DNA of 30,460 bases from a virus: IMG/VR virus record IMGVR_UViG_3300028895_000054, positions 1 to 30,460 of that record. One strand, given 5' to 3'. The notes under the pieces were generated by a model, which saw nothing but the letters and a program-made list of their open reading frames with translations, made no database searches and had not been told where the DNA came from. Shown here piece by piece: positions 5,808 through 20,000 of the stretch. Positions within the stretch are counted from its first letter, which is position 1. Every line of letters begins with the position of its first letter. Both the position numbers and the translations under genes were made by a program.

Positions 5808-6317
5808 ATGAAATCCTTACAAGAATACTTAACCGAGTCTAAAAAAGACTACGAATACCGCATTAAAATTGCAGGCGAACTATCTAAAGAGCAAATCGAC
5901 GAAATTAAGCGTGGGTTTGCACAGTTTGATATGACACAGATTAGTGAGATAGCAAAAACACCTGTAACAAAATCACCATATGATTTTCCAAACTTGGAAA
6001 ACGTTGAAGTTAGCATTTTTGATGTTAAGTTTAACTATCCAGCAGGCCAACAAAGCATACAACAAATTGCAGAAACAGCAGGCGTAAACATTGATCATGT
6101 TGTTGTTACAGGAACAGCATTTGATGAATCAATGAGTGCTGAATTAGAAATGCAAGCAGATAATTCAGGTGATGAACCATTACTAGAAAAGGATTATCCA
6201 GAACAAGATGCCGAGCAAAAGAAAGCAAGTGAAGCTTACGGTGACAGTTTCTTAAGTATGGTCAAAGAGTTAGAAACTCGCAAATACGAAATAGAAAAGG
6301 GCACCGACAATGGATAA
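5808..6317 (+). CDS. Putative internal head protein with capsid-targeting-like N-terminus
   Basis: 169 residues. The start is the ATG at 5808, preceded by GGAG at 5798-5801; an in-frame TTG at 5796 would overlap that ribosome site. The N-terminus MKSLQEYLTE-S closely resembles the capsid targeting tag of T4 IPII and IPIII (MKTYQEFIAE-A), which the gp21 prohead protease removes after the Glu. The body, about residues 15-110, reads as a mixed alpha/beta domain with YEYRIKIAGELSKEQIDEIKRG and VEVSIFDVKFNYPAGQQSIQQIA. The C-terminus is acidic. It overlaps the next gene by 8 bases. The role is inferred: a protein packaged in, or scaffolding, the prohead. Confidence 0.8.
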   Translation: MKSLQEYLTESKKDYEYRIKIAGELSKEQIDEIKRGFAQFDMTQISEIAKTPVTKSPYDFPNLENVEVSIFDVKFNYPAGQQSIQQIAETAGVNIDHVVVTGTAFDESMSAELEMQADNSGDEPLLEKDYPEQDAEQKKASEAYGDSFLSMVKELETRKYEIEKGTDNG

Positions 6318-7779
6318 TATCTACAAAGTATTAGAAACACTCAAGAACGTTGAAGAAGAAAAAGACGATAAAATCGAAAACGCTGAAGTAGTATCTGAGG
6401 CAAAAGGCGGACCATTCCAAACACGCGAAAAAGCAGAAGCTGATGCACGTTCAGAAATCGGCGGCGGCGATGAAGGCACTAATTATCGAATCGAAAAGAA
6501 AGACGATGGTTATTACTGGGACGAGAAAATTAATGAATCTAACTTATATCACATCTTAGATACTTTGTATTACAAAGTATCTGAAGAACAATTAAACGAA
6601 GGACCAGAAGATTTAATAGCTAATTTAAAAGACCGTCGCAAAACATTTAGACAAGCGGCAGCAGATAGCGGGTTAGCAGATAAATCAATGAAGACTCCAC
6701 AACAAACAGCACAAGCTCCACAACAACCAGAAAAGAAAGATAAAGGTTGGTTCAGTTCTTTATTTGATGATGTAGTCTCAGAAAATAATGATCAATTAAC
6801 TGATAATGTAGCAGCAAGAATTATTAGATACTTAGAAAGAGAAAACCCAGACGTATTCAAACAACACGGTAGCGAATACGTTTACGATATCGCACATCAA
6901 AATGCACACGACTTATGTTATGATTGGCCAGAAGGTGAAGGCTTTGGATCAAGCGATGCCTACGGTGCTATTCAAGGCACATTACGTGACTTAGGATTAA
7001 ACGAAGAAGGCACTCGTGTACAGCAAATGGGTACTAAAACAGTTGTAAACACACAAGATGGTGATAGACACGAATTTGATGATCCAGCAATGGCACAAGA
7101 ATTCATTGCACAAAAAGATATGATGGACAGTAAAGATATGAGCAAATTAAACGATAAATTTGAAAAAGTAATGGAAAACTTAAACGAAGACATTACAGTA
7201 ACACAAATGGATCCACAAAACCCAGAAGGCGATACTGTTACAGTAACATCAAACGTAAACAATATTGACGCCTTACAAGGCTTATTAAGCAACGCAGGCT
7301 TAGGCAATGCAGCAAGCATGGAACCATACGCACCAGAGATTGATCCTGGTATGGACGCTGAATTAGACGGCGGTCCTGTAATGGGCATGGGCGGCAACGA
7401 TTTAGCAGGCCCTACAGACTTACCAGCAATGGATGAGCCAGTCGGCGACGAAATGGGCGGAGACGATATGTCGACGTTTATGTCTATTGTTGATAAAGGT
7501 ATGGAAGAACCTGACATGGACATGGAACCAGAAGTAGATATCGAGCCTCCAATGGAAGAGCGCGACATTGAACATGCTAATACTCCAGACGAAAAATTAG
7601 GCACAACTGATACATTAGTTAACAAATTATCAGGTGGCTTAAACGGTCCTAAAGATATGCCATATGCACCAGCTAACGGCGGAGACAATCCTCGTGCAGG
7701 CAAACGTGTATATGAAGATTCAGAAGACGCCGACGTATTACGTGGCTTAAACGATTTATATCAAAAATATAAAGGCTAA
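6310..7779 (+). CDS. Large acidic protein, possible prohead core/scaffold
   Basis: 489 residues, very acidic and modular. An N-terminal helical segment (MDNIYKVLETLKNVEEEKDD) is followed by an EAKGGPFQTREKAEADARSE-type segment, a Gln/Pro linker near 140, a central domain, then DTVTVTSNVNNIDALQGLLS, and a Met/Asp/Gly/Pro-rich low-complexity tract around 345-420. Comparable acidic, modular proteins lie near the head genes of marine T4-like phages, and T4 core proteins (gp22, gp67, gp68) are also acidic and proteolysed. Several internal L-N-E-type sites resemble gp21 cleavage sites. No homologue with a proven role is recognised; scaffold or internal protein is an inference from composition and context. 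Confidence 0.75.
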   Translation: MDNIYKVLETLKNVEEEKDDKIENAEVVSEAKGGPFQTREKAEADARSEIGGGDEGTNYRIEKKDDGYYWDEKINESNLYHILDTLYYKVSEEQLNEGPEDLIANLKDRRKTFRQAAADSGLADKSMKTPQQTAQAPQQPEKKDKGWFSSLFDDVVSENNDQLTDNVAARIIRYLERENPDVFKQHGSEYVYDIAHQNAHDLCYDWPEGEGFGSSDAYGAIQGTLRDLGLNEEGTRVQQMGTKTVVNTQDGDRHEFDDPAMAQEFIAQKDMMDSKDMSKLNDKFEKVMENLNEDITVTQMDPQNPEGDTVTVTSNVNNIDALQGLLSNAGLGNAASMEPYAPEIDPGMDAELDGGPVMGMGGNDLAGPTDLPAMDEPVGDEMGGDDMSTFMSIVDKGMEEPDMDMEPEVDIEPPMEERDIEHANTPDEKLGTTDTLVNKLSGGLNGPKDMPYAPANGGDNPRAGKRVYEDSEDADVLRGLNDLYQKYKG

Positions 7780-7784
7780 TAACA

Positions 7785-7994
7785 ATGGCAGCCAATGGTA
7801 TATCAACATTACCAACTAAACGTGAACGCCAGGATGCTAAACTAGCATTAGCAGCAACAAAACGAGCCACCAACGGTAGACGTTCTACATTAGATGTTAC
7901 AGAATTACCTACACGTTATACAGCCGGCGATAATACAAGTGTTGACGACAATCCAAATGCAGGCGGATTAGTCGAAGGTCGTCCGTGGAAGTAA
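7785..7994 (+). CDS. Small conserved T4-like protein
   Basis: 69 residues. The sequence GISTLPTKRERQDAKLALAATKR, then LDVTELPTRYTAGD, ending in GGLVEGRPWK, is a pattern I recall from small conserved proteins near head genes of marine T4-like phages. The role is unknown. No signal peptide or membrane segment is present. It starts 5 bases after the acidic protein and stops one base before the next gene, so it is part of the same operon. A minor virion or assembly role is likely from context only. Confidence 0.75.
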   Translation: MAANGISTLPTKRERQDAKLALAATKRATNGRRSTLDVTELPTRYTAGDNTSVDDNPNAGGLVEGRPWK

Positions 7995-7995
7995 T

Positions 7996-8337
7996 ATGAG
8001 AGCTAAAGAGTTTATAACAGAAAATAAGCATGGTGATTTACCAGGCACTTTTGCGGACTCTTTAACACATGCAGGATACACTGCTGACAAGTATTACGAC
8101 ATGTATCGTTTGTCTATGTTAATTGGACGTATGCCGGATGATGCAGATGATATAGATTTCTATTCATGGATTGGACAAACACCATACATTGGTGCATATA
8201 GTAAAGAAGAATACGAAATGATTCAAAAAGCAGCTAAACAAGTTGGCATTCCTTTTGGAACTCATGTGCCTTCAGAAAGTAAAGAACACGAAGCCGTTAA
8301 CATAAAATCAATAACAAAACCATTTAAGGGATATTAA
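7996..8337 (+). CDS. Small putative internal head protein with targeting-like N-terminus
   Basis: 113 residues. The N-terminus MRAKEFITE-N fits the internal-protein tag pattern (M-K/R, four residues, two hydrophobics, x, E). The body contains YYDMYRLSMLIGRMPDDADD and AYSKEEYEMIQKAAKQVGIP, a helical pattern seen in short marine phage proteins of unknown function, and ends in a basic tail ITKPFKGY. It starts one base after the previous stop and ends one base before the next start. If the tag is processed, the mature protein would begin at about residue 10. The function is unknown. Confidence 0.75.
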   Translation: MRAKEFITENKHGDLPGTFADSLTHAGYTADKYYDMYRLSMLIGRMPDDADDIDFYSWIGQTPYIGAYSKEEYEMIQKAAKQVGIPFGTHVPSESKEHEAVNIKSITKPFKGY

Positions 8338-8338
8338 A

Positions 8339-9274
8339 ATGAAATCACAAGATTTTTTAGCTGAAGCTACACCGGGCATGGACGAGATTAACGTTCCTAA
8401 GAAACTAGCAGCGGCAATTGCAAAAGAATATGATATTGAACATACTAAAGTTCCAGAGCCGTTAGAGAAAGCACCATCTAAAGCAGAAGCACAGAATAAC
8501 TTAGTTATATTTGTAAAAGATGATGGTACTGCTTATGCTGTACACCAACGTAGAGATTCATACTGGCATTTCTGGACTTATAAGAACGGTGAAATAAAAT
8601 ACGCCGATAAGAAAAACATCGGCGATGTTAAAAAATTAATCGGCGCTACTAAAAAGAACGGACACTGGTATGCAGTCGAAGGCGGATGGGATGGAATCCG
8701 TTACCGCGATGAGAAACCAGCGAGTGATGTTGACAGTGTTAGAAAACGCGAAGAAGTAGGTCAAGGCGAAGTTTGGTACGATTATATGGACCGTGTATTT
8801 CTTCCTAAAATACAAGACAAGTTAAATGGCTATGCTGATGCTATCTATGCAGGCTTGCGTGAAATCCCACGTGACTATGACAAGTATGGTGACCATAACC
8901 CAGGCGGCATTAGACGTAATATTGTTGGTAATCGTGACAGACAAAGTGCTCGCGAAGCAGCATTAATGGCTGCCGAAGCAATTGAAAGCATTGCAGAGCA
9001 TGGCTTTACTAAAAAGACAGTTGCTAAGTTCATTGAAACATACGGTACATTGCATCATGGGTATGGTAGTATTCCAGATAATGAAGCTGAGTTTCAAAAG
9101 TTAATGCAAGAAGAACCAGCAGCCCGAGCTAAGTTTGCTAAAACATTATTACAAATGGGTAAGAAAGAATACGAAAAAGTCCAAGAGCTTAAAATGTCTA
9201 TCTTAAAAGATAAGATGCAGCCTAAAGAAAGCGAAGATCTTAACGACATTAAAATATTAGGTGGTATTAAATAG
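8339..9274 (+). CDS. Putative internal head protein with targeting-like N-terminus, unknown function
   Basis: 311 residues. The N-terminus MKSQDFLAE-A is an almost exact parallel of the T4 IPII/IPIII tag (MKTYQEFIAE-A). Residues about 50-130 form an aromatic-rich domain (NNLVIFVKDDGTAYAVHQRR, YWHFWTYKNG, HWYAVEGGWDGIRYRD). The C-terminal half is helical and charged (AALMAAEAIESIAEHGFTKK, KMGKKEYEKVQELK-like). No catalytic motif is recognised. It is the last gene before the hairpin cluster and terminator that precede gp17, so it closes the gp16-to-internal-protein operon. It could be a DNA-associated core protein or an injected effector. Confidence 0.78.
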   Translation: MKSQDFLAEATPGMDEINVPKKLAAAIAKEYDIEHTKVPEPLEKAPSKAEAQNNLVIFVKDDGTAYAVHQRRDSYWHFWTYKNGEIKYADKKNIGDVKKLIGATKKNGHWYAVEGGWDGIRYRDEKPASDVDSVRKREEVGQGEVWYDYMDRVFLPKIQDKLNGYADAIYAGLREIPRDYDKYGDHNPGGIRRNIVGNRDRQSAREAALMAAEAIESIAEHGFTKKTVAKFIETYGTLHHGYGSIPDNEAEFQKLMQEEPAARAKFAKTLLQMGKKEYEKVQELKMSILKDKMQPKESEDLNDIKILGGIK

Positions 9275-9279
9275 TTTTT

Positions 9280-9350
9280 ATACCTTAGGACCATAAGGTA
9301 TGGCTGGCGCTTACAGCCTTAGAACTTCCCTCGCTACCTCTAAGTTCTAA
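9280..9350 (+). ncRNA. Candidate structured RNA: three tandem hairpins before gp17
   Basis: Right after a stop codon come three perfect hairpins. The first is ATACCTTA/TAAGGTAT (9280-9287/9294-9301, loop 6), the second GGCTG/CAGCC (9302-9306/9314-9318, loop 7), and the third TTAGAACTT/AAGTTCTAA (9319-9327/9342-9350, loop 14). They are spaced 0-1 base apart and a fourth hairpin, a terminator, follows at 9359. No ORF covers the region. The compact order looks like a small RNA or structured 3' UTR. I recognise no Rfam family. Confidence 0.5.
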
Positions 9351-9358
9351 AAAGTAAG

Positions 9359-9385
9359 AAAACCTGCTTCGGCAGGTTTTATTTT
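9359..9385 (+). terminator. Intrinsic terminator before gp17
   Basis: AAAACCTGC (9359-9367), UUCG-type tetraloop TTCG, GCAGGTTTT (9372-9380), then ATTTT. The 9-bp stem with a very stable loop ends the upstream late operon and the hairpin cluster. Confidence 0.9.
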
Positions 9386-9393
9386 GTTAAATA
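9386..9393 (+). promoter_or_regulatory. T4-type late promoter box 7 bases before gp17
   Basis: GTTAAATA, followed by CAATATT and then the ATG at 9401. The extended form TAAATACNATATT resembles the T4 late consensus TATAAATACTATT. No Shine-Dalgarno fits between box and start, so a leaderless transcript is predicted. Confidence 0.6.
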
Positions 9394-9400
9394 CAATATT

Positions 9401-10969
9401 ATGTCGAAGTCACTTGAAGGCGTCTTAGTTAAAAAAGCACACGCCAAACTTACATATACAGATGATGAACTTAAAGAGTTCATAGCTTGTGCCGATCAAG
9501 AGACCGGCCCTATGTTCTTTATGAGCAACTTCTTTCATATTCAGCATCCTAAAAAAGGTAAGTTGTTGTATGATCCTTTTGATTATCAAAAAGGACTAAT
9601 TGATTCATATCATCATCACCGCTTCTCTATTAACTTATTGTCTAGGCAAACAGGTAAAACAACCACAGCCGCAGGATACTTACTTTGGTATGCTATGTTT
9701 AAAGCAGACTCTACTATCCTTATTGCAGCTCACAAATACTCTGGTGTACAAGAAATTATGCAGCGTATTCGTTATGCATACGAACTATGCCCAGACCATA
9801 TACGAGCAGGTGTTACATCATATAACAAAGGTAGTATAGAGTTTGACAACGGCAGCCGATTGGTAGCCCAAGCAACCACTGAAAATACTGGACGTGGTAT
9901 GTCTATTACACTTCTATACTTAGACGAATTTGCATTCGTACGTCCTAACATTGCGAAAGAGTTCTGGACTTCAATATCACCTACACTAGCAACTGGTGGT
10001 AGTGCAATTATTACTTCTACTCCGAACTCGGATGAGGATCAGTTTGCTTTACTATGGAAAGGCGCAAATAAAACAGAAGATGAATTCGGTAACACAACAG
10101 AATTAGGTGTTAACGGATTTAAGGCATACGAAGCTGACTGGCGCTGTCATCCAGATCGCGATGAACAGTGGGCAGCAGATGAAATGGGCCGTATCGGTGA
10201 AGAACGTTTTAGACGTGAGCATTTAAATGAGTTTATCATCAATGACGAAACATTAGTAGCAGCAACAACGTTAATTGACATGGAAGGGTCAGAACCAGCA
10301 TATAAAGTAGGACAAGTGCGTTGGTGGGAAAAGCCAAAGAAAGGACATATCTATACAGTAGCATTAGATCCTAGTTTAGGTACAGGTGGTGATCCATCAG
10401 CAATACAAATATTTGACGCTACAACCACAACACAAATAGGCGAATGGAAACATAATAAAACGCCAGTGCAAATGCAAGTTAGAATCCTAGCAGACATTGT
10501 TAGAGAAATTCATGACCAAACACAAGACCCATTGAGCATCTATTATAGTATTGAAAACAATACACTAGGCGAAGCAGCATTAGTGTCCTTAGATAACTAT
10601 GGCGAAGATAATATTCCTGGTATGATGTTAAACGATACACAAGGTCCTAAAACACCTGGGCGTAGAAGTCGTAAAGGATTCAACACAACAAACAAAGCAA
10701 AACTTACAGCTTGTGCTAAGTTCAAGCACTTGGTAGAATCAAAACGAATGACTATTAAGAGTGCTAGTTTAATATCAGAGCTTAAAAACTTTGTAGCAGT
10801 TGGTAATAGTTATGAAGCGAAGCCAGGCGAGACAGACGATTTGGTTATGGCAACATTATTAACAACTAGAATGCTAAACGTTTTAAAAGATTATCACAAA
10901 GAATTAAGTGATCAAATAACAGACTTCAATGATGAGATTATAGCTCCGATGCCGTTTATCGTGTTTTAG
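9401..10969 (+). CDS. 17: Terminase large subunit gp17
   Basis: This is the packaging motor ATPase and headful nuclease, with 522 residues. The ATPase domain has Walker A SRQTGKTT (81-88; T4 has SRQLGKT), and further on Walker B LLYLDEFAF and coupling motif ITSTPNSDEDQF. The RNase H-fold nuclease domain shows ALDPSLGTGGDPSA (first Asp), SIENNTLGEAAL (Glu) and PGETDDLVMA (last Asp pair), so all catalytic positions are present. It is shorter than T4 gp17 (610). Its partner gp16 lies 3.6 kb upstream. The gene has its own late box and is insulated from upstream transcription by a strong terminator. A homing endonuclease gene follows. Confidence 0.97.
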   Translation: MSKSLEGVLVKKAHAKLTYTDDELKEFIACADQETGPMFFMSNFFHIQHPKKGKLLYDPFDYQKGLIDSYHHHRFSINLLSRQTGKTTTAAGYLLWYAMFKADSTILIAAHKYSGVQEIMQRIRYAYELCPDHIRAGVTSYNKGSIEFDNGSRLVAQATTENTGRGMSITLLYLDEFAFVRPNIAKEFWTSISPTLATGGSAIITSTPNSDEDQFALLWKGANKTEDEFGNTTELGVNGFKAYEADWRCHPDRDEQWAADEMGRIGEERFRREHLNEFIINDETLVAATTLIDMEGSEPAYKVGQVRWWEKPKKGHIYTVALDPSLGTGGDPSAIQIFDATTTTQIGEWKHNKTPVQMQVRILADIVREIHDQTQDPLSIYYSIENNTLGEAALVSLDNYGEDNIPGMMLNDTQGPKTPGRRSRKGFNTTNKAKLTACAKFKHLVESKRMTIKSASLISELKNFVAVGNSYEAKPGETDDLVMATLLTTRMLNVLKDYHKELSDQITDFNDEIIAPMPFIVF

Positions 10970-10987
10970 TACTATTCATCGTGTTTG

Positions 10988-10995
10988 TATAAATA
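10988..10995 (+). promoter_or_regulatory. Consensus T4-type late promoter box before HNH gene
   Basis: A perfect TATAAATA, preceded by G, ends 5 bases before the ATG at 11001. No Shine-Dalgarno is visible, so the transcript would be nearly leaderless. Confidence 0.65.
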
Positions 10996-11000
10996 AATGT

Positions 11001-11621
11001 ATGTACAAACAAAACAAATATACTACCTGGTATTATAATATAATTTCTACTGCTCAAAGCAGGTCACTGACAGAAGGATATGCTGAAAAGCATCACATTA
11101 TTCCACGTTCGTTAGGCGGAACAGATGACAAAGATAATTTAGTTGTATTAACTGCAAGAGAACACTTCGTCTGCCACCTACTACTCCCTAAGATGCTTAA
11201 AGGTTCCAACAAGAAAAAAATGTTATTTGCATTATGGGCAATGTCTAATCAACGTTCTGATGGTCAAGAGCAACGATATACTCCAACCGGAAGAATATAC
11301 GAGCAGATAAAACAACAAGCAGTAGAAGCTATTAGAGAAGCATCCTTAAAGCAAGATAAATCACATCTTAAGGGCCGCAAGATAACCTGGGCAGACAAGA
11401 TAAGTGAAACACTTAAAGGTCGTAAACCATCTGTAGAACGCAATGCTAAAGTAAGTAAATCACTTACAGGAAGAAAACGTTCCAAAGCAGAGTGCGAAGC
11501 AATTAGTAAAGGTCAACAAGGGTTTAAGTGGTATAACAATGGTACCAAAAATATTAAATGTCGACCTGAAGATGTGCCAGCAGGCTATACTCCAGGAATG
11601 TTTAAAACCTGTAAAAAATGA
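11001..11621 (+). CDS. HNH homing endonuclease with NUMOD3 repeats
   Basis: 206 residues. An N-terminal HNH nuclease has EKHHIIPRSLGGTDDKDNLV (H31, H32, N46) and TAREHFVCHLLL (H55, H59). The C-terminal half holds NUMOD3-type DNA-binding repeats (SETLKGRKPSVERNAKVSKS, SLTGRKRSKAECEAISKGQQ), then a basic WYNNGTKNIKCRPEDVP tail typical of phage endonucleases. Free-standing enzymes of this kind cut alleles lacking them and spread next to conserved genes, here just after gp17. It has its own late box. The stop overlaps the next small ORF (ATGA). The active site looks complete. Confidence 0.92.
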   Translation: MYKQNKYTTWYYNIISTAQSRSLTEGYAEKHHIIPRSLGGTDDKDNLVVLTAREHFVCHLLLPKMLKGSNKKKMLFALWAMSNQRSDGQEQRYTPTGRIYEQIKQQAVEAIREASLKQDKSHLKGRKITWADKISETLKGRKPSVERNAKVSKSLTGRKRSKAECEAISKGQQGFKWYNNGTKNIKCRPEDVPAGYTPGMFKTCKK

Positions 11622-11779
11622 TAAATCTAAATCTCAAGGATAAGTCAAAAGATGAGTTGCAAAAGCTCATTGAAGAGTTAAACTATAAAACAACAATAGC
11701 CCCATCACATCTAAGGCCATTAATAGTTCGTAATTTAAATATGGTAATAAAAGAATTTAAAAGTCGAAATCCAGACTAA
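11618..11779 (+). CDS. Small ORF coupled to HNH endonuclease
   Basis: 53 residues, starting in a four-base ATGA overlap with the HNH stop. It reads MINLNLKDKSKDELQKLIEE, then a basic segment (SHLRPLIVRNL, VIKEFKSRNPD). It is charged and helical, with no membrane segment. No family is recognised. It may be an accessory to the endonuclease or a small DNA/RNA-binding protein. The evidence is the coupled start and a complete short frame only. Confidence 0.5.
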   Translation: MINLNLKDKSKDELQKLIEELNYKTTIAPSHLRPLIVRNLNMVIKEFKSRNPD

Positions 11780-11794
11780 ATAGATTTGTATGTT

Positions 11795-11875
11795 ACAGTG
11801 CAGGATAGCAAGTCTAAGTGTAAAGTCCAAGAAGTGAAATTGATATGCTAACACTACTCACTATCCTGACACTGT
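11795..11875. repeat. Imperfect inverted repeat in intergenic region
   Basis: ACAGTGCAGGATAG (11795-11808) pairs with CTATCCTGACACTGT (11861-11875) over 14 pairs with a single bulged base. An inner AGTGT/ACACT pairing (11817-11821/11851-11855) is possible. No T run follows, so it is not a standard terminator. The 206 bases between 11779 and 11986 hold no convincing gene; besides this repeat they contain a late box at the end. A structured RNA or homing-associated site is possible. Confidence 0.5.
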
Positions 11876-11970
11876 GATATACCCCATTTTGTACTATTAT
11901 TTATGTAAAAGTTTTACATACTTAAATAAATTTCTCTAATAGAATGCCATTTATTGTATTTTGATTTAGT

Positions 11971-11978
11971 CATAAATA
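11971..11978 (+). promoter_or_regulatory. T4-type late promoter box before amidoligase-like gene
   Basis: CATAAATA, then CGATATT, then the ATG at 11986. Box and 7-base spacer are nearly identical to those of gp17. No Shine-Dalgarno is possible in this gap, so a leaderless transcript is predicted. Confidence 0.62.
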
Positions 11979-11985
11979 CGATATT

Positions 11986-14229
11986 ATGCGCTTATCAAAT
12001 TTATTAAAAGAATTTACACAACGCAAACCTGTCTTAGAAAAAGATATGGCGCCTTCTACACTTTCAAAAGAAGTACAACAAATTATCAAAAGTGGTAACA
12101 CACCAATGATTGGTGTAGAAATTGAAGTATGTATTCCTCGTGAAGATCACGAAGGATATGATCCAGAAGATGATCCGGATGTACCTAGCATCGATAATGA
12201 CACTACATTAGATGATTTAAAATACTTCTTCGATCAAAACAGCAGTGATGACTGGATGGATTTTTCTCAAAGCTATGATGAGTGGGTATGGGAAAAAGTA
12301 TCAGACCATCATTATGATAATGTAGAGAAAGCAAAAGATAATCCAGAACTATACAGCGGTGTAAAACAACGCTACATGCAAGAAGAAATTGATGCCGAAG
12401 GATTCAGAAGTCTATTAGATCAATTAAACATGGATGATGATTTTACAAACGAAGTTGTAGAAGAGATATTCGCAGATGCAATGAAAGCTCGTAAAAATAT
12501 TGGGCCAGCAAGTACTTGGGCTTATGAAGACGAGACTAACATGAAGGTTAACTATCCTGGCGCTAACTTATACTTAGAAATTTTTTATGAAGATGGCGAC
12601 TTTGACCATTATATGTATGAGTTCTTATCACAACAAGCAGAAGAAGAATATTGGGATCCATACGAAGAATTTACAGCAGGTATGTACATTAAAGATTATT
12701 ATGGTGGCGCCCATGGCACAATGTATGACTTCTTTTTAGACAATACAGATTGGTTATATTGGCCACTTGGTAGCTTAGGTAACGAAGGTTATGACATGGA
12801 TTTAGCCATGCAGATTAAAGATGCTATAGAAGGTGTTAGTGAGTATGATGTTATAGTATCATCGGATTATCATGGTGGCAGTGGACGCGGGCATAAGTGG
12901 ATCATTGAAGAAGATAGTTCAATTGAAGTTGATGACGAAAATGATACAGCATACGAAATTGTTGGTCCTGCTATACCTTATACAGACATACATGAAATTG
13001 AAGCAGTGTTCCATTTATTAAGAACTCAGTTTAATGCATACACAAATAATTCAACAGGCTTACATGTTAATGTTAGCATCGAAGGTGTTGATCATAAGAA
13101 AGTAGATTATACTAAACTTGCTTTATTATTAGGTGACGAGCATATATTAGACAAGTTCGACAGACTTGGTAATGGATATGCTGCACCTGCATTAGATAGA
13201 ATTGCAAGAGCAATGAATGATGCAGCAAATAAAACCAATCCATTTACAGGTCAACCTGCAGACAAGTATGCAAAGTTTATGGATAGTATTCGTTCTAAAA
13301 TGAATACAAGTGTGCATGATTTATTGGGTGAATTAACAATTGACAAATATACCTCAATTGGTTTAAAAAATAATAGAATTGAATTCCGTTCTCCAGGTAA
13401 TGCAAACTACTTAGACGATTGGGGCAAACTACAACAAACAATAGATCGGTTTGTTAGTACATACGCCATTGCAGCAGATCCAGAAGCACATAAACAAGAG
13501 TATGCTAAAAAGTTATACAGATTATTACAAGAGCCCAAAGATAAGGCACCAGTATATTCTAACGAAGTAATTAAATTATTCTCATTATATTCGTCGGGCA
13601 AAATTGACAAGCAAAGCCTAGTGCAAGGACTAAAAGGTGTACGTGGTGATCGTAATAAAGCAAAAGAAGAAAAAATAAAAGCACAGCAAAAACAAGAGTA
13701 CACGCAAGCAAAGAATGATTTAATTGAATGGATAAAATATAATTCACCAGACCAAGCGATACATGCCGTTGACCCGATGTTACAATTTGCTTTACGAACA
13801 GAGCGTGGTAAACTTATGAAACAGCCAGGTGCAGAAGAAAAGTATGGAGATACTTCTAATCATCAATTTAAAATGGATGTGTTGGCTATAATTAAATCTA
13901 ACTTATCTAAGAATATGGATTATTATAAAGAGTTAGCAGACAAAGAAAATCCAGACGGGCCAGCAGAGATGCCAAGCAATGCACCAGACATGAGTGATAA
14001 GTTTAATAATGCTGTAATGTTGATACATCAAAATTATAGATTAGCTGGTCGCGGCAACGAAGTAACAGAATATGATATTAAACCTGTCTTATTTCATGCA
14101 ATACAACAAGAAAAAGCTCGTGGCAATGAAGATGAACAAGCATTAAGAAATGCATTTAGACGCTTATCGGCAGATATTAATTATTATAGAGATACAGGAA
14201 TAGTAAACGTAGAAGCAGGATTTTCATAA
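11986..14229 (+). CDS. Amidoligase-like (COOH-NH2 ligase) protein with capsid-targeting-like N-terminus
   Basis: 747 residues. The N-terminus MRLSNLLKE-F fits the internal-protein tag pattern. The catalytic signature resembles the glutamine-synthetase/GCS-fold amidoligase family: IGVEIEVCIP (Glu45 and Glu47), GLHVNVS (His360) and RIEFRSPG (Glu466, Arg468), in the usual order. The family joins carboxyl and amino groups with ATP. A very acidic, aromatic insertion fills residues about 55-340, and a Lys/Gln-rich coiled segment near 560-590 leads into a helical C-terminus. Its stop overlaps the next start (TAATG). The substrate is unknown; cell wall or protein modification is an inference. A packaged, injected enzyme is also possible given the tag. 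Confidence 0.75.
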   Translation: MRLSNLLKEFTQRKPVLEKDMAPSTLSKEVQQIIKSGNTPMIGVEIEVCIPREDHEGYDPEDDPDVPSIDNDTTLDDLKYFFDQNSSDDWMDFSQSYDEWVWEKVSDHHYDNVEKAKDNPELYSGVKQRYMQEEIDAEGFRSLLDQLNMDDDFTNEVVEEIFADAMKARKNIGPASTWAYEDETNMKVNYPGANLYLEIFYEDGDFDHYMYEFLSQQAEEEYWDPYEEFTAGMYIKDYYGGAHGTMYDFFLDNTDWLYWPLGSLGNEGYDMDLAMQIKDAIEGVSEYDVIVSSDYHGGSGRGHKWIIEEDSSIEVDDENDTAYEIVGPAIPYTDIHEIEAVFHLLRTQFNAYTNNSTGLHVNVSIEGVDHKKVDYTKLALLLGDEHILDKFDRLGNGYAAPALDRIARAMNDAANKTNPFTGQPADKYAKFMDSIRSKMNTSVHDLLGELTIDKYTSIGLKNNRIEFRSPGNANYLDDWGKLQQTIDRFVSTYAIAADPEAHKQEYAKKLYRLLQEPKDKAPVYSNEVIKLFSLYSSGKIDKQSLVQGLKGVRGDRNKAKEEKIKAQQKQEYTQAKNDLIEWIKYNSPDQAIHAVDPMLQFALRTERGKLMKQPGAEEKYGDTSNHQFKMDVLAIIKSNLSKNMDYYKELADKENPDGPAEMPSNAPDMSDKFNNAVMLIHQNYRLAGRGNEVTEYDIKPVLFHAIQQEKARGNEDEQALRNAFRRLSADINYYRDTGIVNVEAGFS

Positions 14230-14675
14230 TGTCAAAATATTTAGAAGAACACAAGTCAGCAATACAAATGATAATAGCCGCTGGCGCTTTAATTACTGCT
14301 ATTGCTGCGCCAATCGGGTTATGGTTAACATTTACAAATTATGTCGACGGTGTAGCAACAAAATTACAAGCAGATTATGTTGAGCGTGATCAATCTGTAT
14401 TACAGAACACTGGTACAGCAATCGGTGTAAGAACAAAGATGCTTAAAGCGATTATTGAAGAATCTAATCTAGGTGGCTATAAAGCAATACAAGAAATATT
14501 AGAGCAACGTGCAGAGTTATTAAGTAAACGACTAGCAGACATGCAAGACTTGCCACATACAAACTATAAGAAAGGTTTAGTTCTTGATGAACTTAAACGT
14601 GTTGATGACATTTTAGAAGATGTAGAGAGGTTAATTAAAAAGGTAGATAAGATATGGGATCCAAACTTAGAATAA
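14229..14675 (+). CDS. Single-pass membrane protein with coiled coil (i-spanin- or holin-like)
   Basis: 148 residues. A short charged N-terminus (MSKYLEEHK) is followed by a hydrophobic segment at about 12-35 (IQMIIAAGALITAIAAPIGLWLTF), then about 110 charged helical residues with heptad character (EILEQRAELLSKRLADMQ, LDELKRVDDILEDVERLIKK). This resembles the layout of inner-membrane spanins (one N-terminal anchor plus periplasmic coiled coil). The next gene, encoding an exported Pro-rich protein, starts inside its 3' end, as in Rz/Rz1 pairs. It is coupled to the amidoligase-like gene by a one-base overlap. A holin or a generic membrane protein is the alternative. Confidence 0.65.
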   Translation: MSKYLEEHKSAIQMIIAAGALITAIAAPIGLWLTFTNYVDGVATKLQADYVERDQSVLQNTGTAIGVRTKMLKAIIEESNLGGYKAIQEILEQRAELLSKRLADMQDLPHTNYKKGLVLDELKRVDDILEDVERLIKKVDKIWDPNLE

Positions 14676-15031
14676 TAGCGTTAATGTTTTTAGTAACGCC
14701 TGTTTATGCAATGGGCCCAACAAAGCATCCAGAATATGATCAAGCATTTGATCAATATATTCAAGAAGCAGAACGCCCTATACCCCAAAGCAGTATTCCA
14801 AAACCGACGGCACCAAAGCAAAGTTCTGTTATGCCAGCACCGGAACCTGTGTTAATAGTTCCTGCAGAGGTTGTGTCTGTACCAGACCGCAAGATTGCGA
14901 CAGAAAAAGATATTTATATTCCGAAGTACTTTAAGTACCTACCGCCTAAGTATCGCGAAAAACTAATAGAAAAAAGAATAAAAAAAAAGCAGGCGGAGTT
15001 CGATAACCAACCAAGAGATGTAGAATTATGA
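14654..15031 (+). CDS. Exported proline-rich small protein (possible o-spanin analogue)
   Basis: 125 residues. A signal peptide is clear: MGSKLRIIALMFLVTPVYA with an A-x-A-like end (VYA-M) and no lipobox cysteine. The mature part is proline-rich (RPIPQSSIPKPTAPKQSS, APEPVLIVPAEVVSVPD), then basic (KYREKLIEKRIKKKQAEF). The start lies 22 bases inside the upstream membrane-protein gene, recalling overlapping spanin genes. However, classical o-spanins are lipoproteins and this one lacks the cysteine, so the spanin assignment is tentative. It could instead be another periplasmic phage protein. Confidence 0.62.
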   Translation: MGSKLRIIALMFLVTPVYAMGPTKHPEYDQAFDQYIQEAERPIPQSSIPKPTAPKQSSVMPAPEPVLIVPAEVVSVPDRKIATEKDIYIPKYFKYLPPKYREKLIEKRIKKKQAEFDNQPRDVEL

Positions 15032-15279
15032 TGTACTCAGAAGAAGAAGCCAAAAGAAAATATTGCCCGCATATTAATAACCCATGTTTGGGCAAAGAAT
15101 GTATGATGTTTTCGTTTGTGGTTAGAGAGTATAGATCACAAGAGCCTGTTAGATTAGGCGGTGCAGCAGCACTAGAAACTCATGTTACAACTAGACAAGA
15201 CAAGTTAAAAAATAATACATGCTATGATAAAATTGATTTATATCATTGCGGATTAACAGCAAAGCCGGAAGTTAAATGA
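15028..15279 (+). CDS. Small cysteine-rich protein, probable metal binder
   Basis: 83 residues. Cysteines are clustered as KYCPHINNPCLGKECMMF, and two more occur near the C-terminus (TCYDKIDLYHCG). The CP-x-C-x-C arrangement resembles small phage proteins with C-x-G-x-x-C-M-type motifs that may bind Zn or Fe-S. It starts with ATGATG overlapping the previous stop by 4 bases and ends in an ATGA overlap with the next gene, so it is translated within the same tightly coupled operon. No enzymatic function is recognised. Confidence 0.65.
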   Translation: MMYSEEEAKRKYCPHINNPCLGKECMMFSFVVREYRSQEPVRLGGAAALETHVTTRQDKLKNNTCYDKIDLYHCGLTAKPEVK

Positions 15280-16646
15280 GATTATCTACTATATTAAATG
15301 AAGGAACTGATAATTTATATCATGCAACATCACCACATGCTGCATTAAAAATCCTTGTTGACAAACAATTCAAACTTACATCTAATATAGGCAATGATGT
15401 CGAAACAGCTAAACAGTATAAAGATTACGAATACTATTTGTCTACTACACGTTCTAAAGTAGGTGATTATCACCAACGTGTGTATAAGCAAGGCTTAATA
15501 ATGAATTTAGACGGGCGTTGGATTAATCAACGATATCCTGTTAAACCAATTGACTACTGGGATCGTATGTGGTTTAATAAAGAAACAGGTGCTACTCACA
15601 CAGATAGAACAAGCGAAGCCGAAGATCGTGTATTCAGTAAAGAGCCCACAATGCCAATTACTCCGTTGCAGGAAATACATGTATTCTGGCAAGAAGATGC
15701 AAATCCAGACTGGAACTTTATAGTACGCAGAATTTTCATCGAAGCTAAAAAGCAAGGCATTGGCATTTGGTTATACGATGACCCAAAACAATGGATGGCA
15801 CAAAACAAGGCAAAAGCAATATCTATTGCTGATGCTAAAGAAAGATTACAAGGACAAGAAAAGCCAAGCTGGGGTATGAAGCGCGAAGACAAATATCTTA
15901 ATGCGTGGCTTGAGTTATATTATAAAAAGTCTACAGCAGAGTTAAGTGACTACGGTAAAAAACAATACCGCGAGTTATGGGGCTGGGGCGATTTATCACA
16001 AGGCTTTGGTAATGATTTACGAAATGCATCAAAACCTAACTCGCATGGTTACGATGCAGCAACAAAGATTAGACAAATAATGCGTCAACAACGTTTACAA
16101 ACGCCTGCGGACTTTATAGAGTTTATAAAGAAAAAGTGGGAGCCTATAAAAGACCGCGAACATGAAGCAGAGATGGCTGCATGGCGTAAAAAGAAAGAAC
16201 AAGAAAAGCAAGCAGCCAACGAAGATTATGACTGGGAACAGGATGAAGGTATGGACTTTGTTAACCCATTACCTACAATTAAAGACACAACTATATGGGA
16301 CGTTGTTGATAAAGTTGATGAGGTATTAATGGATAAGTCTGGACAAGGATATGAGTCATCAGAACAATATGCTAAAACTATGACTGCGATGCGTAATAAG
16401 TATGGTGTAATTAGACATATACCATTGAGCCAAGTTATTTGTACAGAGAAATATCTAGACCCAGAAAAAATTGATGCTGTGCGACAGGGAACGAGTGCCA
16501 GATCTTCTAGTGAATATCCTGTAGTAATCAAATACAATAACAAATACTATGCAGTTGATGGTAATCATCGTATTGTTGCAGCATATTTAAATGGCACCGG
16601 CACAGTTGAAGTTCAAATTTTAGACGCCGATAGGTTATTACAATGA
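15276..16646 (+). CDS. ADP-ribosyltransferase-like/ParB-like fusion with capsid-targeting-like N-terminus
   Basis: 456 residues. MRLSTILNE-G matches the internal-protein tag pattern. Residues 13-120 look like an ADP-ribosyltransferase-type fold: NLYHATSPHAALKIL (His16), YYLSTTRS (53-60) and SEAEDRVFS (Glu114/Glu116 as possible catalytic Glu). A long helical, Lys/Glu-rich middle follows. The C-terminal 80 residues resemble a ParB/sulfiredoxin-type domain: HIPLSQVIC, then EYPVVIKYNNKYYAVDGNHR and IVAAYLNG (DGNHR at 428-432). T4 packages an ADP-ribosyltransferase (Alt) with its DNA, so this could be an unrelated analogue. Domain assignments are from motifs only; the ParB-like end is clearer than the transferase. 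Confidence 0.68.
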   Translation: MRLSTILNEGTDNLYHATSPHAALKILVDKQFKLTSNIGNDVETAKQYKDYEYYLSTTRSKVGDYHQRVYKQGLIMNLDGRWINQRYPVKPIDYWDRMWFNKETGATHTDRTSEAEDRVFSKEPTMPITPLQEIHVFWQEDANPDWNFIVRRIFIEAKKQGIGIWLYDDPKQWMAQNKAKAISIADAKERLQGQEKPSWGMKREDKYLNAWLELYYKKSTAELSDYGKKQYRELWGWGDLSQGFGNDLRNASKPNSHGYDAATKIRQIMRQQRLQTPADFIEFIKKKWEPIKDREHEAEMAAWRKKKEQEKQAANEDYDWEQDEGMDFVNPLPTIKDTTIWDVVDKVDEVLMDKSGQGYESSEQYAKTMTAMRNKYGVIRHIPLSQVICTEKYLDPEKIDAVRQGTSARSSSEYPVVIKYNNKYYAVDGNHRIVAAYLNGTGTVEVQILDADRLLQ

Positions 16647-16894
16647 GAGCAACAGAATTTATAATAGAAAGTGTATTAACCGAAAGTCAAATAATCTCAT
16701 TGTTTGAACTTGAAGAATTAGATCGTAACACTATTTCTAAATTATTTCGCACAATGGATCATTATTTTTGTAAAGCAGCATTAGATAAGGATACAGAAGC
16801 AATAACAATAGTTGATAAATTAAAAAAGATTTTTGCCGCACATGATTTAGATATGGTGTACGGTGATTTAAGTGTAGATCGTTGTATGACATAA
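16643..16894 (+). CDS. Small protein with capsid-targeting-like N-terminus
   Basis: 83 residues, starting in an ATGA overlap with the previous gene. The N-terminus MRATEFIIE-S, followed by VLTE-S, offers two possible gp21-type cleavage points. The rest is a short helical domain (QIISLFELEELDRNTISKLF, AITIVDKLKKIFAAHDLDMV). No family is recognised. Tag and position suggest a small head-packaged protein. It is the last gene of the coupled run that starts at 11986. Confidence 0.7.
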   Translation: MRATEFIIESVLTESQIISLFELEELDRNTISKLFRTMDHYFCKAALDKDTEAITIVDKLKKIFAAHDLDMVYGDLSVDRCMT

Positions 16895-16923
16895 AGTATA
16901 GTTATTAAAATAAAAAATAGGCC

Positions 16924-16931
16924 ATTAAATA
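16924..16931 (+). promoter_or_regulatory. Possible T4-type late promoter box before metacaspase
   Basis: ATTAAATA, 23 bases before the ATG at 16955, with an AAGGA ribosome site at 16940-16944 in between. It matches the consensus less well than other boxes in the window. Confidence 0.45.
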
Positions 16932-16954
16932 TTGTAATAAAGGAAAATATTTCA

Positions 16955-17953
16955 ATGGCAAAAAAAGCATTTCTAGTAGGTATCAATTATCCAGATACAG
17001 ATCACGCATTGCGTGGTTGTGTTAACGATGTTTTAATGACAGAATCGGCATTAACTACACATTTTGGTTTTGATGAAAATGATATTGTTGTGTTAACTGA
17101 CAATAAAGCAACAGCAGCAAATATCAAAAACGGTCTTAGAGACTTAGTAAAAGATGCAAAAGCAGGAGATATATTATATTTCCATTTCTCGGGGCATGGC
17201 TCACAAATTCCAGATTCATTGTACGACACAGATTACGAAGCCGACGGCATGGATGAAATCTTATGTCCGATTGACTTAGATTGGTATTCTCGAGTTGTTA
17301 AAGATGATGACATCCGAGAGATTATTAAAGATGTTGATCCGGCTGTAAATTTAACAATGGTATTAGATTGCTGTCACAGTGGTTCGGGCACAGATGCTGA
17401 AAGTCAACATAATGTATTAACAGAAGAAGAAGCAGTTCCGGCAACCGACGATCCAATGAAATCACGTCAATTACCTATGCCAGATCACCTACAAGAAAGG
17501 CTTGTTGAAGGTAAAACAAGACATTTTGTAACAAGAGATGCAAGTGAACCGGGTGTTATTGTAACAGGGTGTCAAGAATATCAAACAAGTGCAGATGCTT
17601 ATATTAACGGTCAATGGTGTGGTGCAGCAACATATCATTTATTAGAAGCCTTAAAGACTAATAAAAACTTAGTAACATATAAAACGTTAGTTCAAACAAT
17701 GAACGAGAATTTAACACAACGTGGTTATACACAACGTCCGCAATTAGGTGGTGATGCATCGTGGCACCAGGAAAACTTTTTAAGTTTTAAAGAAGTTAAA
17801 CCAGAAGTTGTCGAAGAAGAAATAAAACCAGATTTAGAGGATGAAGAATTATTCTTTGAATCGATTGACGATACCAATGATGAATCGAAAAAAACATTAT
17901 TAGTAGCCGGAGCAGCGATTGTTGGATTTTTATTAATAATTGCAAATATGTGA
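16955..17953 (+). CDS. Metacaspase-like (C14) protease with C-terminal membrane anchor
   Basis: 332 residues. The caspase-fold p20 domain has AFLVGINYPDTDHALRGCVN near the N-terminus, YFHFSGHGSQ with catalytic His81, YEADGMDEILCPID (substrate-pocket region), and LDCCHSGS with catalytic Cys140. This His/Cys pair and the DGxDE motif are those of metacaspases and related bacterial C14 peptidases, which cut after basic residues. A charged acidic linker (PEVVEEEIKPDLEDEELFFE) leads to a hydrophobic C-terminal tail (LLVAGAAIVGFLLIIANM), giving a tail-anchored protein facing the cytoplasm. It has a good ribosome site and sits just before a lysis-type peptidase. Its target is unknown: host proteins, phage proteins or its own release are all possible. 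Confidence 0.92.
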   Translation: MAKKAFLVGINYPDTDHALRGCVNDVLMTESALTTHFGFDENDIVVLTDNKATAANIKNGLRDLVKDAKAGDILYFHFSGHGSQIPDSLYDTDYEADGMDEILCPIDLDWYSRVVKDDDIREIIKDVDPAVNLTMVLDCCHSGSGTDAESQHNVLTEEEAVPATDDPMKSRQLPMPDHLQERLVEGKTRHFVTRDASEPGVIVTGCQEYQTSADAYINGQWCGAATYHLLEALKTNKNLVTYKTLVQTMNENLTQRGYTQRPQLGGDASWHQENFLSFKEVKPEVVEEEIKPDLEDEELFFESIDDTNDESKKTLLVAGAAIVGFLLIIANM

Positions 17954-17960
17954 ATAAATA
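17953..17960 (+). promoter_or_regulatory. T4-type late promoter box before M15 peptidase
   Basis: AATAAATA directly after the metacaspase stop codon, 19 bases before the ATG at 17980. An AGAGGT ribosome site lies at 17967-17972. Confidence 0.6.
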
Positions 17961-17979
17961 TATTCTAGAGGTTAGAATT

Positions 17980-18396
17980 ATGTCTGACATATATAAATGC
18001 GAACACTTTGCTATTCATGAATTAGTCCCGCGCAAAGTTTATGAGGATCGTGGCGAAAAAGCCTGGCAACTATTAGATTTACGTTTATTAGTAACACTAG
18101 ATAGATTAAGAAAACGTTATGGCTCTATAACAATTAATAATTGGTATTGGGGCGGCGACAGAGAATGGTCTGGGTTACGCACACCAGATAGTCCTTATTA
18201 TTCTGCGTATAGCCAACACACATTTGGCAGAGCAGCGGATTGTTTATTTACAATTCCGTCAGAAAATATTAGACAAGATATTTTAGCAGATCCAACACAC
18301 CGTGATTTTGAATTAATCGGAAGTCTCGAACTTGGGGTAAGTTGGTTACACTTTGACGTTCGTAACTGTGATCGTATTATGACTTATTACCCATGA
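17980..18396 (+). CDS. M15 family zinc peptidase, probable endolysin
   Basis: 138 residues. The start ATG at 17980 has AGAGGT upstream; an in-frame ATG at 17950 lies before the ribosome site and overlaps the metacaspase end. The zinc-site motifs of peptidase family M15A are present: YSQHTFGRAADCLF with His80 and Asp87, and SWLHFDVR with His124 plus Asp126. Such phage enzymes cut peptidoglycan cross-links or stem peptides. No signal peptide is present, so a holin or other export route is needed. Together with the upstream membrane and exported proteins it suggests a lysis region. A virion-associated wall hydrolase is the alternative. Confidence 0.87.
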   Translation: MSDIYKCEHFAIHELVPRKVYEDRGEKAWQLLDLRLLVTLDRLRKRYGSITINNWYWGGDREWSGLRTPDSPYYSAYSQHTFGRAADCLFTIPSENIRQDILADPTHRDFELIGSLELGVSWLHFDVRNCDRIMTYYP

Positions 18397-18397
18397 T

Positions 18398-19975
18398 ATG
18401 TTTGAATATGAGATACAGAGGCTAACAGAAAAGTTTTTAATAGTGGGAGAACCACTATACCTATCAACATTTTTCACCGTCGGCGGAAAGAAAGAAATAT
18501 TTAAGCAATTGCAAATGTATCGTAAAGATGTGTTTGATAACAACGAACGAATCATTATAATACAAGATTGTATTGATGAATATAGATTTAGAGACCATCC
18601 AGGACAAGCTCTAACATTCATACAAGAATCATTACAACTAATTGATATATCGAATTTTTTTGTATTAGTTGTTACAGGGAATTCTAATATTAAAGAAGAA
18701 TTAGAATGGTTACAACAACATTGTTCTACAGACCATAATCCTATACAATCTCAACTAATAGATGCACCCTATGAAAAAATAACCCAAACACGAGATACTT
18801 TCTGCATGTTGCCGTGGATTCATTTATATTCACAATCTGATGGCGCACTTAATCCTTGTTGTACAGCAGATTATACAATTGACATGGGTAACATTAAAGA
18901 TCCAGAATTCTTTAATAATAAGCAAGCAACTAATCTAAGATACGAAATGCTAAATGGGTATATACCTAAGGTTTGTAACAGATGCTTCCGAGACGAAGAT
19001 AAAAATCAAGTTAGTAGAAGGCAACGTGAAAATAATAGATGGGGAAAGTATAAAGAAGAAGTCGTTAGTAAAACCAATGATAACGGTTCATTGAATGAAT
19101 TTACACCAAGATTTCTTGATATTAGATATAATAACTTATGTAACTTAAAATGTCGAACTTGCAGCGGAATGAGTAGCAGTAGAATTGCAGTTGAAGAAGA
19201 TGAGTTGTTTGGAAATAGTTATCACAAAAATTTACCAAAAGTAAAACAATTTGAAATAGTCGAACAATACTTCAACAATGTTGACGAAGTGTACTTTGCT
19301 GGTGGTGAACCATTATTAATGGATGAGCATTACAAAACTCTTGATGCATTGATAGCCGTCGGTAAAACAGACATACAGCTTAGGTACAATACTAACTTTA
19401 GTATATTACAATACAAAGACAAGAATCTAATAGATTACTGGAACCAATTTAAACGAGTTCAACTTGGTATTAGTATAGATGGTGTTGGTGATCAACTTGA
19501 GTATTGTCGCAATGGCGTATCCTGGCATAAAGTTGAATCTAATTTAGAAGCACTCAATGAATGCCCGCATGTATTAGTTAAAGTTACATCGGTTGTAAGT
19601 ATTCTATCTATTTTAAGTCTAATAGAATTGCAACATAAATGGATCTCAGAGAATAAAATAGAACCAGAAAATTTTATAATGAATGTAACATTATCGTCAA
19701 CAGAATATTTATTTGACACGTCTTATAATATTCAAATGTTAACACTAAAACAAAAGAAAGAAGTCTCAGCACAAATAAGAAATCATTGCGAATGGTTAGA
19801 ATCCATTGGTGCTGAATCGTTAGTCGAAAAGTGGAAAGATATTAGAACGTATATGTTTGCAGAAGATAAAAATTATCAAATTGATCAATTCAAAGACATT
19901 CATAATATGCGTGACAAATATCGTAATGAGGATTTTAATAAGGTATATCCAATGTTTGCAGGATTATTTGATTAA
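18398..19975 (+). CDS. Radical SAM protein with twitch-like cysteine-rich domain
   Basis: 525 residues. The radical SAM cluster motif CNLKCRTC is at 248-255 (C248, C252, C255), followed by VYFAGGEPLLM (the GGEP motif), RYNTN and LGISIDGVGD, all in family order. Upstream is a cysteine-rich stretch (TFCMLPWIHLYSQSDGALNP then CCT, and KVCNRCF) typical of twitch/SPASM-like regions that bind another Fe-S cluster. The N-terminal 130 residues are unassigned. Twitch-type radical SAM proteins occur in marine myoviruses with unknown substrates. It starts one base after the M15 stop. A peptide or nucleotide modification is likely from the family; which one cannot be told. Confidence 0.88.
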   Translation: MFEYEIQRLTEKFLIVGEPLYLSTFFTVGGKKEIFKQLQMYRKDVFDNNERIIIIQDCIDEYRFRDHPGQALTFIQESLQLIDISNFFVLVVTGNSNIKEELEWLQQHCSTDHNPIQSQLIDAPYEKITQTRDTFCMLPWIHLYSQSDGALNPCCTADYTIDMGNIKDPEFFNNKQATNLRYEMLNGYIPKVCNRCFRDEDKNQVSRRQRENNRWGKYKEEVVSKTNDNGSLNEFTPRFLDIRYNNLCNLKCRTCSGMSSSRIAVEEDELFGNSYHKNLPKVKQFEIVEQYFNNVDEVYFAGGEPLLMDEHYKTLDALIAVGKTDIQLRYNTNFSILQYKDKNLIDYWNQFKRVQLGISIDGVGDQLEYCRNGVSWHKVESNLEALNECPHVLVKVTSVVSILSILSLIELQHKWISENKIEPENFIMNVTLSSTEYLFDTSYNIQMLTLKQKKEVSAQIRNHCEWLESIGAESLVEKWKDIRTYMFAEDKNYQIDQFKDIHNMRDKYRNEDFNKVYPMFAGLFD

Positions 19976-19985
19976 TGTTGTTAAA

Positions 19986-19993
19986 GATAAATA
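19986..19993 (+). promoter_or_regulatory. T4-type late promoter box 7 bases before the 1321-residue gene
   Basis: GATAAATA, then CTACATT, then the ATG at 20001. It has the same box-to-start geometry as gp17 and the amidoligase-like gene, predicting a leaderless transcript. Confidence 0.62.
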
Positions 19994-20000
19994 CTACATT

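Follow-up and report, generated by a model that had tools for sequence, protein, structure and literature searches.

Does a bacteriophage carry an intact metacaspase, and what might such a protease be doing at the membrane of its host? The question is raised by one gene on a viral DNA stretch of 30,460 nucleotides (IMG/VR record IMGVR_UViG_3300028895_000054), referred to here as the window. An earlier note on this DNA had read the gene as a tail-anchored metacaspase encoded by a phage, and this reading is borne out by the sequence, the predicted structure and the relatives of the protein. That the gene encodes a complete metacaspase is well supported by sequence and structural model, and we consider the combined reading of enzyme plus predicted anchor likely to be correct.

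The ORF (16955..17953, + strand) is intact, begins with ATG and specifies 332 residues, with a ribosome-binding-site-like AAAGGA (16939..16944) located 10 nt 5' of the start codon. Its product matches Pfam Peptidase_C14 (PF00656; E=1.9e-30, far above chance) and, by sequence, solved metacaspases of the PDB (E down to 3.9e-37). An AlphaFold2 (AF2) model of the protein, based on 75 sequences, had a pLDDT of 85 and a pTM of 0.80. AtMC9 and AtMC4 were the best PDB folds found by Foldseek (E=1e-25, TM-score 0.67), followed by yeast and trypanosome metacaspases; the comparison with C14 peptidases that had been proposed as a check returned a caspase fold and not the foreign fold that would have spoken against the reading. 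The His/Cys dyad lies in the SGHG and D-x-C-H-S-G settings that define metacaspases (MEROPS C14B), as His81 (codon 17195..17197) in FSGHGSQ, which begins at residue 78, and Cys140 (codon 17372..17374) in DCCHSGS, which begins at residue 138. Both residues are invariant in the 75 aligned homologues, and these two motifs, together with DGMDEIL, are located where they had been claimed to be. Pfam, AF2 and Foldseek agree on a p20 + p10 C14 fold in which both halves align, the second being a p10-like stretch, QTSADAYING...QRPQL (residues 197-276; 17543..17782), that aligns with plant and yeast metacaspases. The presence of this half rules out an orthocaspase, the prokaryotic form that consists of p20 only. 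Between the halves lies a conserved linker residue, Arg171 (17465..17467), which is Arg or Lys in 74/75 homologues and is a candidate self-cleavage site.

The acidic S1 pocket that accepts Arg/Lys in TbMCA2 is formed by C92, D95, S156 and D211 (PMC4357240), and the equivalent residues of the window protein are C22, D25, S79 and D138. Dyad and pocket are conserved in all 11 members of the phage clade described below (alignment), and cleavage after Arg/Lys is predicted for the phage metacaspase. The Ca2+ ligands of Candida glabrata MCA-I (G196, D198, D214, T242 and D245; PMC9622860) align to G98, D100, D117, S144 and D147. The first two of these putative ligands, aligning with G196/D198, are part of the DGMDEIL motif (residues 97-103; 17243..17263), and Asp147 (17393..17395), which lies seven residues past the catalytic cysteine (Cys+7), is by its alignment position a predicted ligand of eukaryotic type. 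Asp occupies Cys+7 in 6/6 phages of the anchored clade and in 4/4 aligned eukaryotic metacaspases, whereas bacterial homologues have Arg/Lys there in 138 of 142 cases and Asp/Glu in none of the 142. A simple motif reading also gives Asp at Cys+7 in the distant viral sequences L110, L124 and L126. The full putative ligand set appears to be present in the window protein, which is predicted to depend on Ca2+, with Asp147 as the residue that would confer gating. A biochemically studied prokaryotic orthocaspase, which lacks p10, processes itself with no activator added (PMC5756287), in keeping with the view that not all prokaryotic forms are Ca2+-gated.

The acidic linker and hydrophobic C-terminal tail that had been noticed are likewise present. 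The linker (residues 278-309; 17786..17881) contains 14 D/E and 3 K/R among its 32 residues and is disordered in the model, with low pLDDT. It leads into a predicted transmembrane tail (residues 310-331; 17882..17947), seen both as an AF2 helix and by hydropathy, with KK at its cytoplasmic side. Tail hydropathy peaks at a mean Kyte-Doolittle value of 2.32 over 19 residues, a value that 125 of 20,000 whole-protein shuffles also reach. The modeled helix stops one residue short of the protein end (332), and prediction yields the form expected of a tail anchor, a single helix at the very C-terminus with no N-terminal signal. The anchor as such is well supported by prediction; it would sit in the host inner membrane, and the catalytic part would be cytoplasmic, given that there is no signal peptide and that KK precedes the helix. 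Five of the six clade phages have the linker and the hydrophobic tail, with basic residues preceding the tail in most of them; the sixth, L003, is without a C-terminal anchor. A genome scan of 74 close bacterial relatives, sampled by sequence patterns, found a C-terminal membrane helix in none. Metacaspases with a C-terminal transmembrane helix have been described in seven cyanobacterial species (PMC3501461), so it is not the anchored architecture that is unique to phages but the lineage.

The record had been taken to be of phage origin, and its genes for a tail sheath, tail tubes, head closure, a terminase, a gp32-like SSB and UvsX confirm this. This gene set identifies the window as a piece of a T4-like jumbo phage. 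The terminase shares 52% identity with those of PA5oct-like Pseudomonas phages (~287 kb) and 74-75% with that of L132, a 344 kb IMG/VR contig with which the core of the window is collinear. Site comparison with relatives delimits an accessory island of ~9 kb (10970..20000, + strand) that contains the metacaspase gene and lies between the terminase and a virion gene (19857). In L132, the terminase and the homologue of the 19857 gene are only 36 bp apart and the island is missing, as it is at the same site in L133, L134, L135, L137, L140 and L142 (7/7 spanning relatives, L132 included). A search across the 344 kb of L132 found no metacaspase. The absence of the island from relatives marks the metacaspase gene as accessory cargo. 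An HNH endonuclease gene (11001..11621, + strand; Pfam HNH, E=1.2e-5) forms the left edge of the island. The late-promoter sequence TATAAATA has a single + strand match, at 10988, shortly before the island. Late-promoter matches in the window number 2 versus 4.7 expected by chance, and are thus below chance, while sigma-70 sites are at chance level. The assignment of the gene to a late operon was not substantiated, as there is no significant promoter signal and the gene sits in the accessory island. At the contig end, positions 1-13 of the window (GCTCTTCCGATCT) resemble an Illumina adapter remnant, and the first bases are therefore probably an artefact.

Several genes of the window, some of them in the island, share a kind of start. 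The N-terminus M[KR]x(2-4)[FLIY][ILV]xE is found in 6/32 window genes (at 5808, 7996, 8339, 11986, 15276 and 16643, one of these being an internal start), compared with 0/256 internal Met codons in the window and 1/1256 in related loci. This motif resembles the capsid-targeting sequence of injected T4 internal proteins. Injected anti-restriction proteins of T4 carry such N-termini (PMC3012670). The window proteins concerned include a ParB/VapB-like protein, an amidoligase-domain protein (11986..14229, + strand; Pfam Amidoligase_2, E=4e-8) that has a homologue near the L003 metacaspase, and a small protein encoded directly 5' of the metacaspase gene (16643..16894, + strand; MRATEFIIE). Injected effectors may thus be encoded in the island. 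The metacaspase itself starts with MAKKAFLV and has no targeting N-terminus, and the reading as a T4-type packaged internal protein was rejected on this ground. The p20 part matches the PADLOC 'caspase' model PDLC02987 (E=8e-23); a caspase-effector defense system was rejected, no sensor or partner having been recognized among the neighbors scanned. The same island encodes a twitch-domain-type radical SAM protein (18398-19975; NF033640, E=3.5e-103) with weak likeness to prokaryotic viperins (E=1e-8). Two overlapping genes at 14229-15031 encode a protein with an N-terminal TM segment and a coiled-coil-like region (14229-14675) and a small secreted protein; the pair is arranged like spanins but is without a lipobox.

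Only 1 of 50,697 GenBank phage records, the 485 kb megaphage LR745208, has a match to the metacaspase. A scan of viral contigs with the window protein as single query gave no match; with alignments as queries, two scans of IMG/VR brought up ~50 metacaspase-bearing contigs, the weakest of them marginal. The broadest tree comprised 58 bacterial, 30 phage and 4 eukaryotic rows. In it, the window protein belongs to a phage-only clade of six with L003, L004, L005, L088 and L093 (support 98/93), near which lies a second phage group of five members, bringing the two to 11 phages. T4-type portal genes are present in the contigs of L004, L008, L088, L091 and L096; the L004 contig also has a terminase, and L003 a DNA polymerase, both of T4 type. 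A portal and terminase search of the L005 and L093 contigs gave no match, and the phage nature of these two rests on their IMG/VR classification and on PHROG matches of neighbor genes. The window protein belongs to a small and apparently undescribed phage family of metacaspases.

The surroundings of the gene differ from phage to phage. L003 has HExxH-like and amidoligase genes as neighbors, the latter shared with the window, L004 a LamG-like gene and L088 a glycosyltransferase gene. An Hsp20 gene lies 3' of the metacaspase in both L005 and L093, and L093 further has a YkuD L,D-transpeptidase gene and a ClpS-like gene (PHROG ATP-dependent protease family). These differences suggest that the metacaspase acts without a dedicated partner. 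The genes flanking the L003 metacaspase (7200-8864 and 9139-10938) comprise one with an HExxH-like motif and, at an internal start, the capsid-targeting-like sequence MKIADIITE, and one for an amidoligase related to that of the window. Elsewhere, the metacaspase of L011 (4801-6792) is split just past the active-site SGHG by an intein that includes an HNH endonuclease. Two large phages, L090 and L096 (9998-10858 in each), have a soluble metacaspase gene between SSB-like and UvsX-like genes, so that the two share a place among replication genes.

The 11 phage and 4 eukaryotic sequences group together at 90/94 in the broadest tree, which is suggestive, although not starred, and the inner order is unsettled. 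The eukaryotic sample consists of four sequences joined from printed aligned segments, and long branches and thin sampling are concerns. Plant enzymes fell inside the phage six in a first tree with the four eukaryotic sequences and beside it with a broader bacterial sample; the exact branching is therefore not trusted. In an AU test, a clade of the 11 phages that excludes the eukaryotes was not rejected (p=0.34). On the strength of Cys+7 Asp, present in no sampled bacterial homologue, and of the grouping with plant and yeast enzymes, the anchored phage metacaspases might be the nearest sampled kin of the eukaryotic ones, and eukaryotic metacaspases and their Ca2+ gating might have come from, or been exchanged with, a phage-borne lineage; we regard this as possible but doubtful.

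As to function, the gene is optional cargo in a jumbo phage and therefore most likely serves host takeover or conflict (counter-defense, competitor exclusion) and not virion assembly, and the capsid-targeting-like N-termini on neighboring island genes favor this view. We tentatively propose, with a little less than even confidence, that the protein would act as a Ca2+-gated Arg/Lys endopeptidase tethered to the cytoplasmic side of the host membrane, and that the phage would carry it for takeover or conflict. For the takeover or conflict role by itself our confidence is much lower than for enzyme plus anchor. An inactive chain would be made and inserted via its tail. By analogy with related enzymes, it would be switched on by Ca2+ at G98/D100/D117/D118/D147 and by cleavage within the p20-p10 linker at basic residues, with R171 as the candidate, and would then cleave one or more proteins located in or close to the membrane. 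Such a gate would keep the enzyme silent in the intact cell and let it fire on a membrane leak, as caused by a rival phage, a membrane-active defense or lysis. It counts against this proposal that the anchorless L003 belongs to the same clade, and that an endolysin gene adjoins the metacaspase gene and keeps a lysis role in view.

That adjoining gene, described earlier as encoding a peptidoglycan peptidase, indeed specifies an M15-like endolysin (17950..18396, + strand; PHROG 894, E=7e-18), ~45% identical to M15 peptidases of Vibrio and Sulfurimonas phages. Its likely start is the ATG at 17980, so the two genes are probably 26 bp apart, with no overlap. Coupling to lysis would mean that a holin or other membrane damage admits Ca2+, whereupon the anchored enzyme would cleave membrane-bound proteins of host or phage and, in concert with the endolysin, accelerate lysis or set its timing. 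The complete predicted Ca2+ ligand set suits this role, as do the TM and coiled-coil protein 2.3 kb 5' of the metacaspase gene and the YkuD gene that adjoins the L093 copy. However, a search of the remaining ten contigs of the phage clade of 11, several of them fragments, found no endolysin homologue; the neighbors in L004, L005 and L088 are non-lysis genes; and the close relative L132 does without the metacaspase and the entire island. A fixed lysis cassette is not supported, given the outcome of that search in the ten contigs, and a coupling to lysis we judge rather unlikely.

Chlamydomonas CrMCA-II functions at the membrane independently of its proteolytic activity, and yeast and Chlamydomonas metacaspases have roles in quality control and membrane fluidity (PMC10896300); proteolysis may thus not be what matters in the phage protein. 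The anchored protein might instead steady the membrane or remove damaged proteins during infection, as the Hsp20 genes of L005 and L093 and the ClpS-like gene of L093 would suit. An invariant dyad and S1 pocket across the clade would be unexpected were catalysis dispensable, and no Hsp20 link was seen in the window, L003, L004 or L088, which leaves a proteostatic role improbable. Prohead-protease-like trimming of virion or internal proteins would agree with the position of the L011 gene after tail sheath and tail tube homologues, and with island neighbors that resemble packaged, normally trimmed proteins. T4-type phages possess a prohead protease of their own, the metacaspase is missing from a relative that shares the virion genes, and a membrane anchor fits such a task poorly, making it very improbable. 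Recent capture of a host gene without phage function, or an assembly chimera, would agree with the absence of the gene from close relatives and with the adapter remnant at the left end of the contig, but hardly merits belief given that the six-member phage-only clade has starred support and has kept the catalytic residues, that the gene lies 17 kb from the adapter end, and that its third-position GC of 0.22 is within the range of the phage core genes (0.22-0.29).

Searches of open-access literature turned up no bacteriophage metacaspase, an absence that is no proof, and a comparative jumbo-phage survey of 2021 (PMC7824862) leaves caspases unmentioned. Metacaspases as such are a familiar protease family; what is new, to the extent that this could be checked, is the anchored lineage in phages with its Ca2+ position of eukaryotic type. 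Membrane-tethered, apparently Ca2+-gated phage metacaspases would represent a death-type protease used as a phage weapon or trigger. Phage metacaspases would also be small enzymes for probing Ca2+ gating by a single residue (Asp vs Arg at Cys+7), and the eukaryotic link, if true, would bear on the origin of eukaryotic metacaspases.

Among known systems, the p20-p10 metacaspases of bacteria and archaea (Desulfobacterota, Pseudomonadota, Bacteroidota, Methanothrix and others) share the R-x-LPxP linker with the phage protein at up to ~44% identity over the catalytic part, but differ in having Arg/Lys at Cys+7 and, in the 74 close relatives, no C-terminal membrane helix. The helix-bearing cyanobacterial metacaspases have the same architecture but are chromosomal (PMC3501461), and the cyanobacterial sequences sampled fall outside the phage clade and mostly read Arg at Cys+7. 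Strong matches in a viral structure library all came from viruses of eukaryotes, including giant viruses; the metacaspases of Fadolivirus, Clandestinovirus and Medusavirus are virus-encoded C14 folds too, but have eukaryotic hosts and at most 36% identity. Yca1 and C. glabrata MCA-I resemble the phage protein in Ca2+ ligand positions and S1 pocket, and differ from it by an N-terminal extension before p20 and, in the aligned chains, by having no tail anchor. AtMC9 and AtMC4 are like the phage protein in a p20 at or near the N-terminus, the dyad, the S1 pocket and Asp at Cys+7, at ~25-30% identity. Type II metacaspases are defined by having no prodomain and a long p20-p10 linker; the phage protein has no prodomain, but its linker of ~50 residues is shorter than that of AtMC4, and it has a C-terminal anchor.
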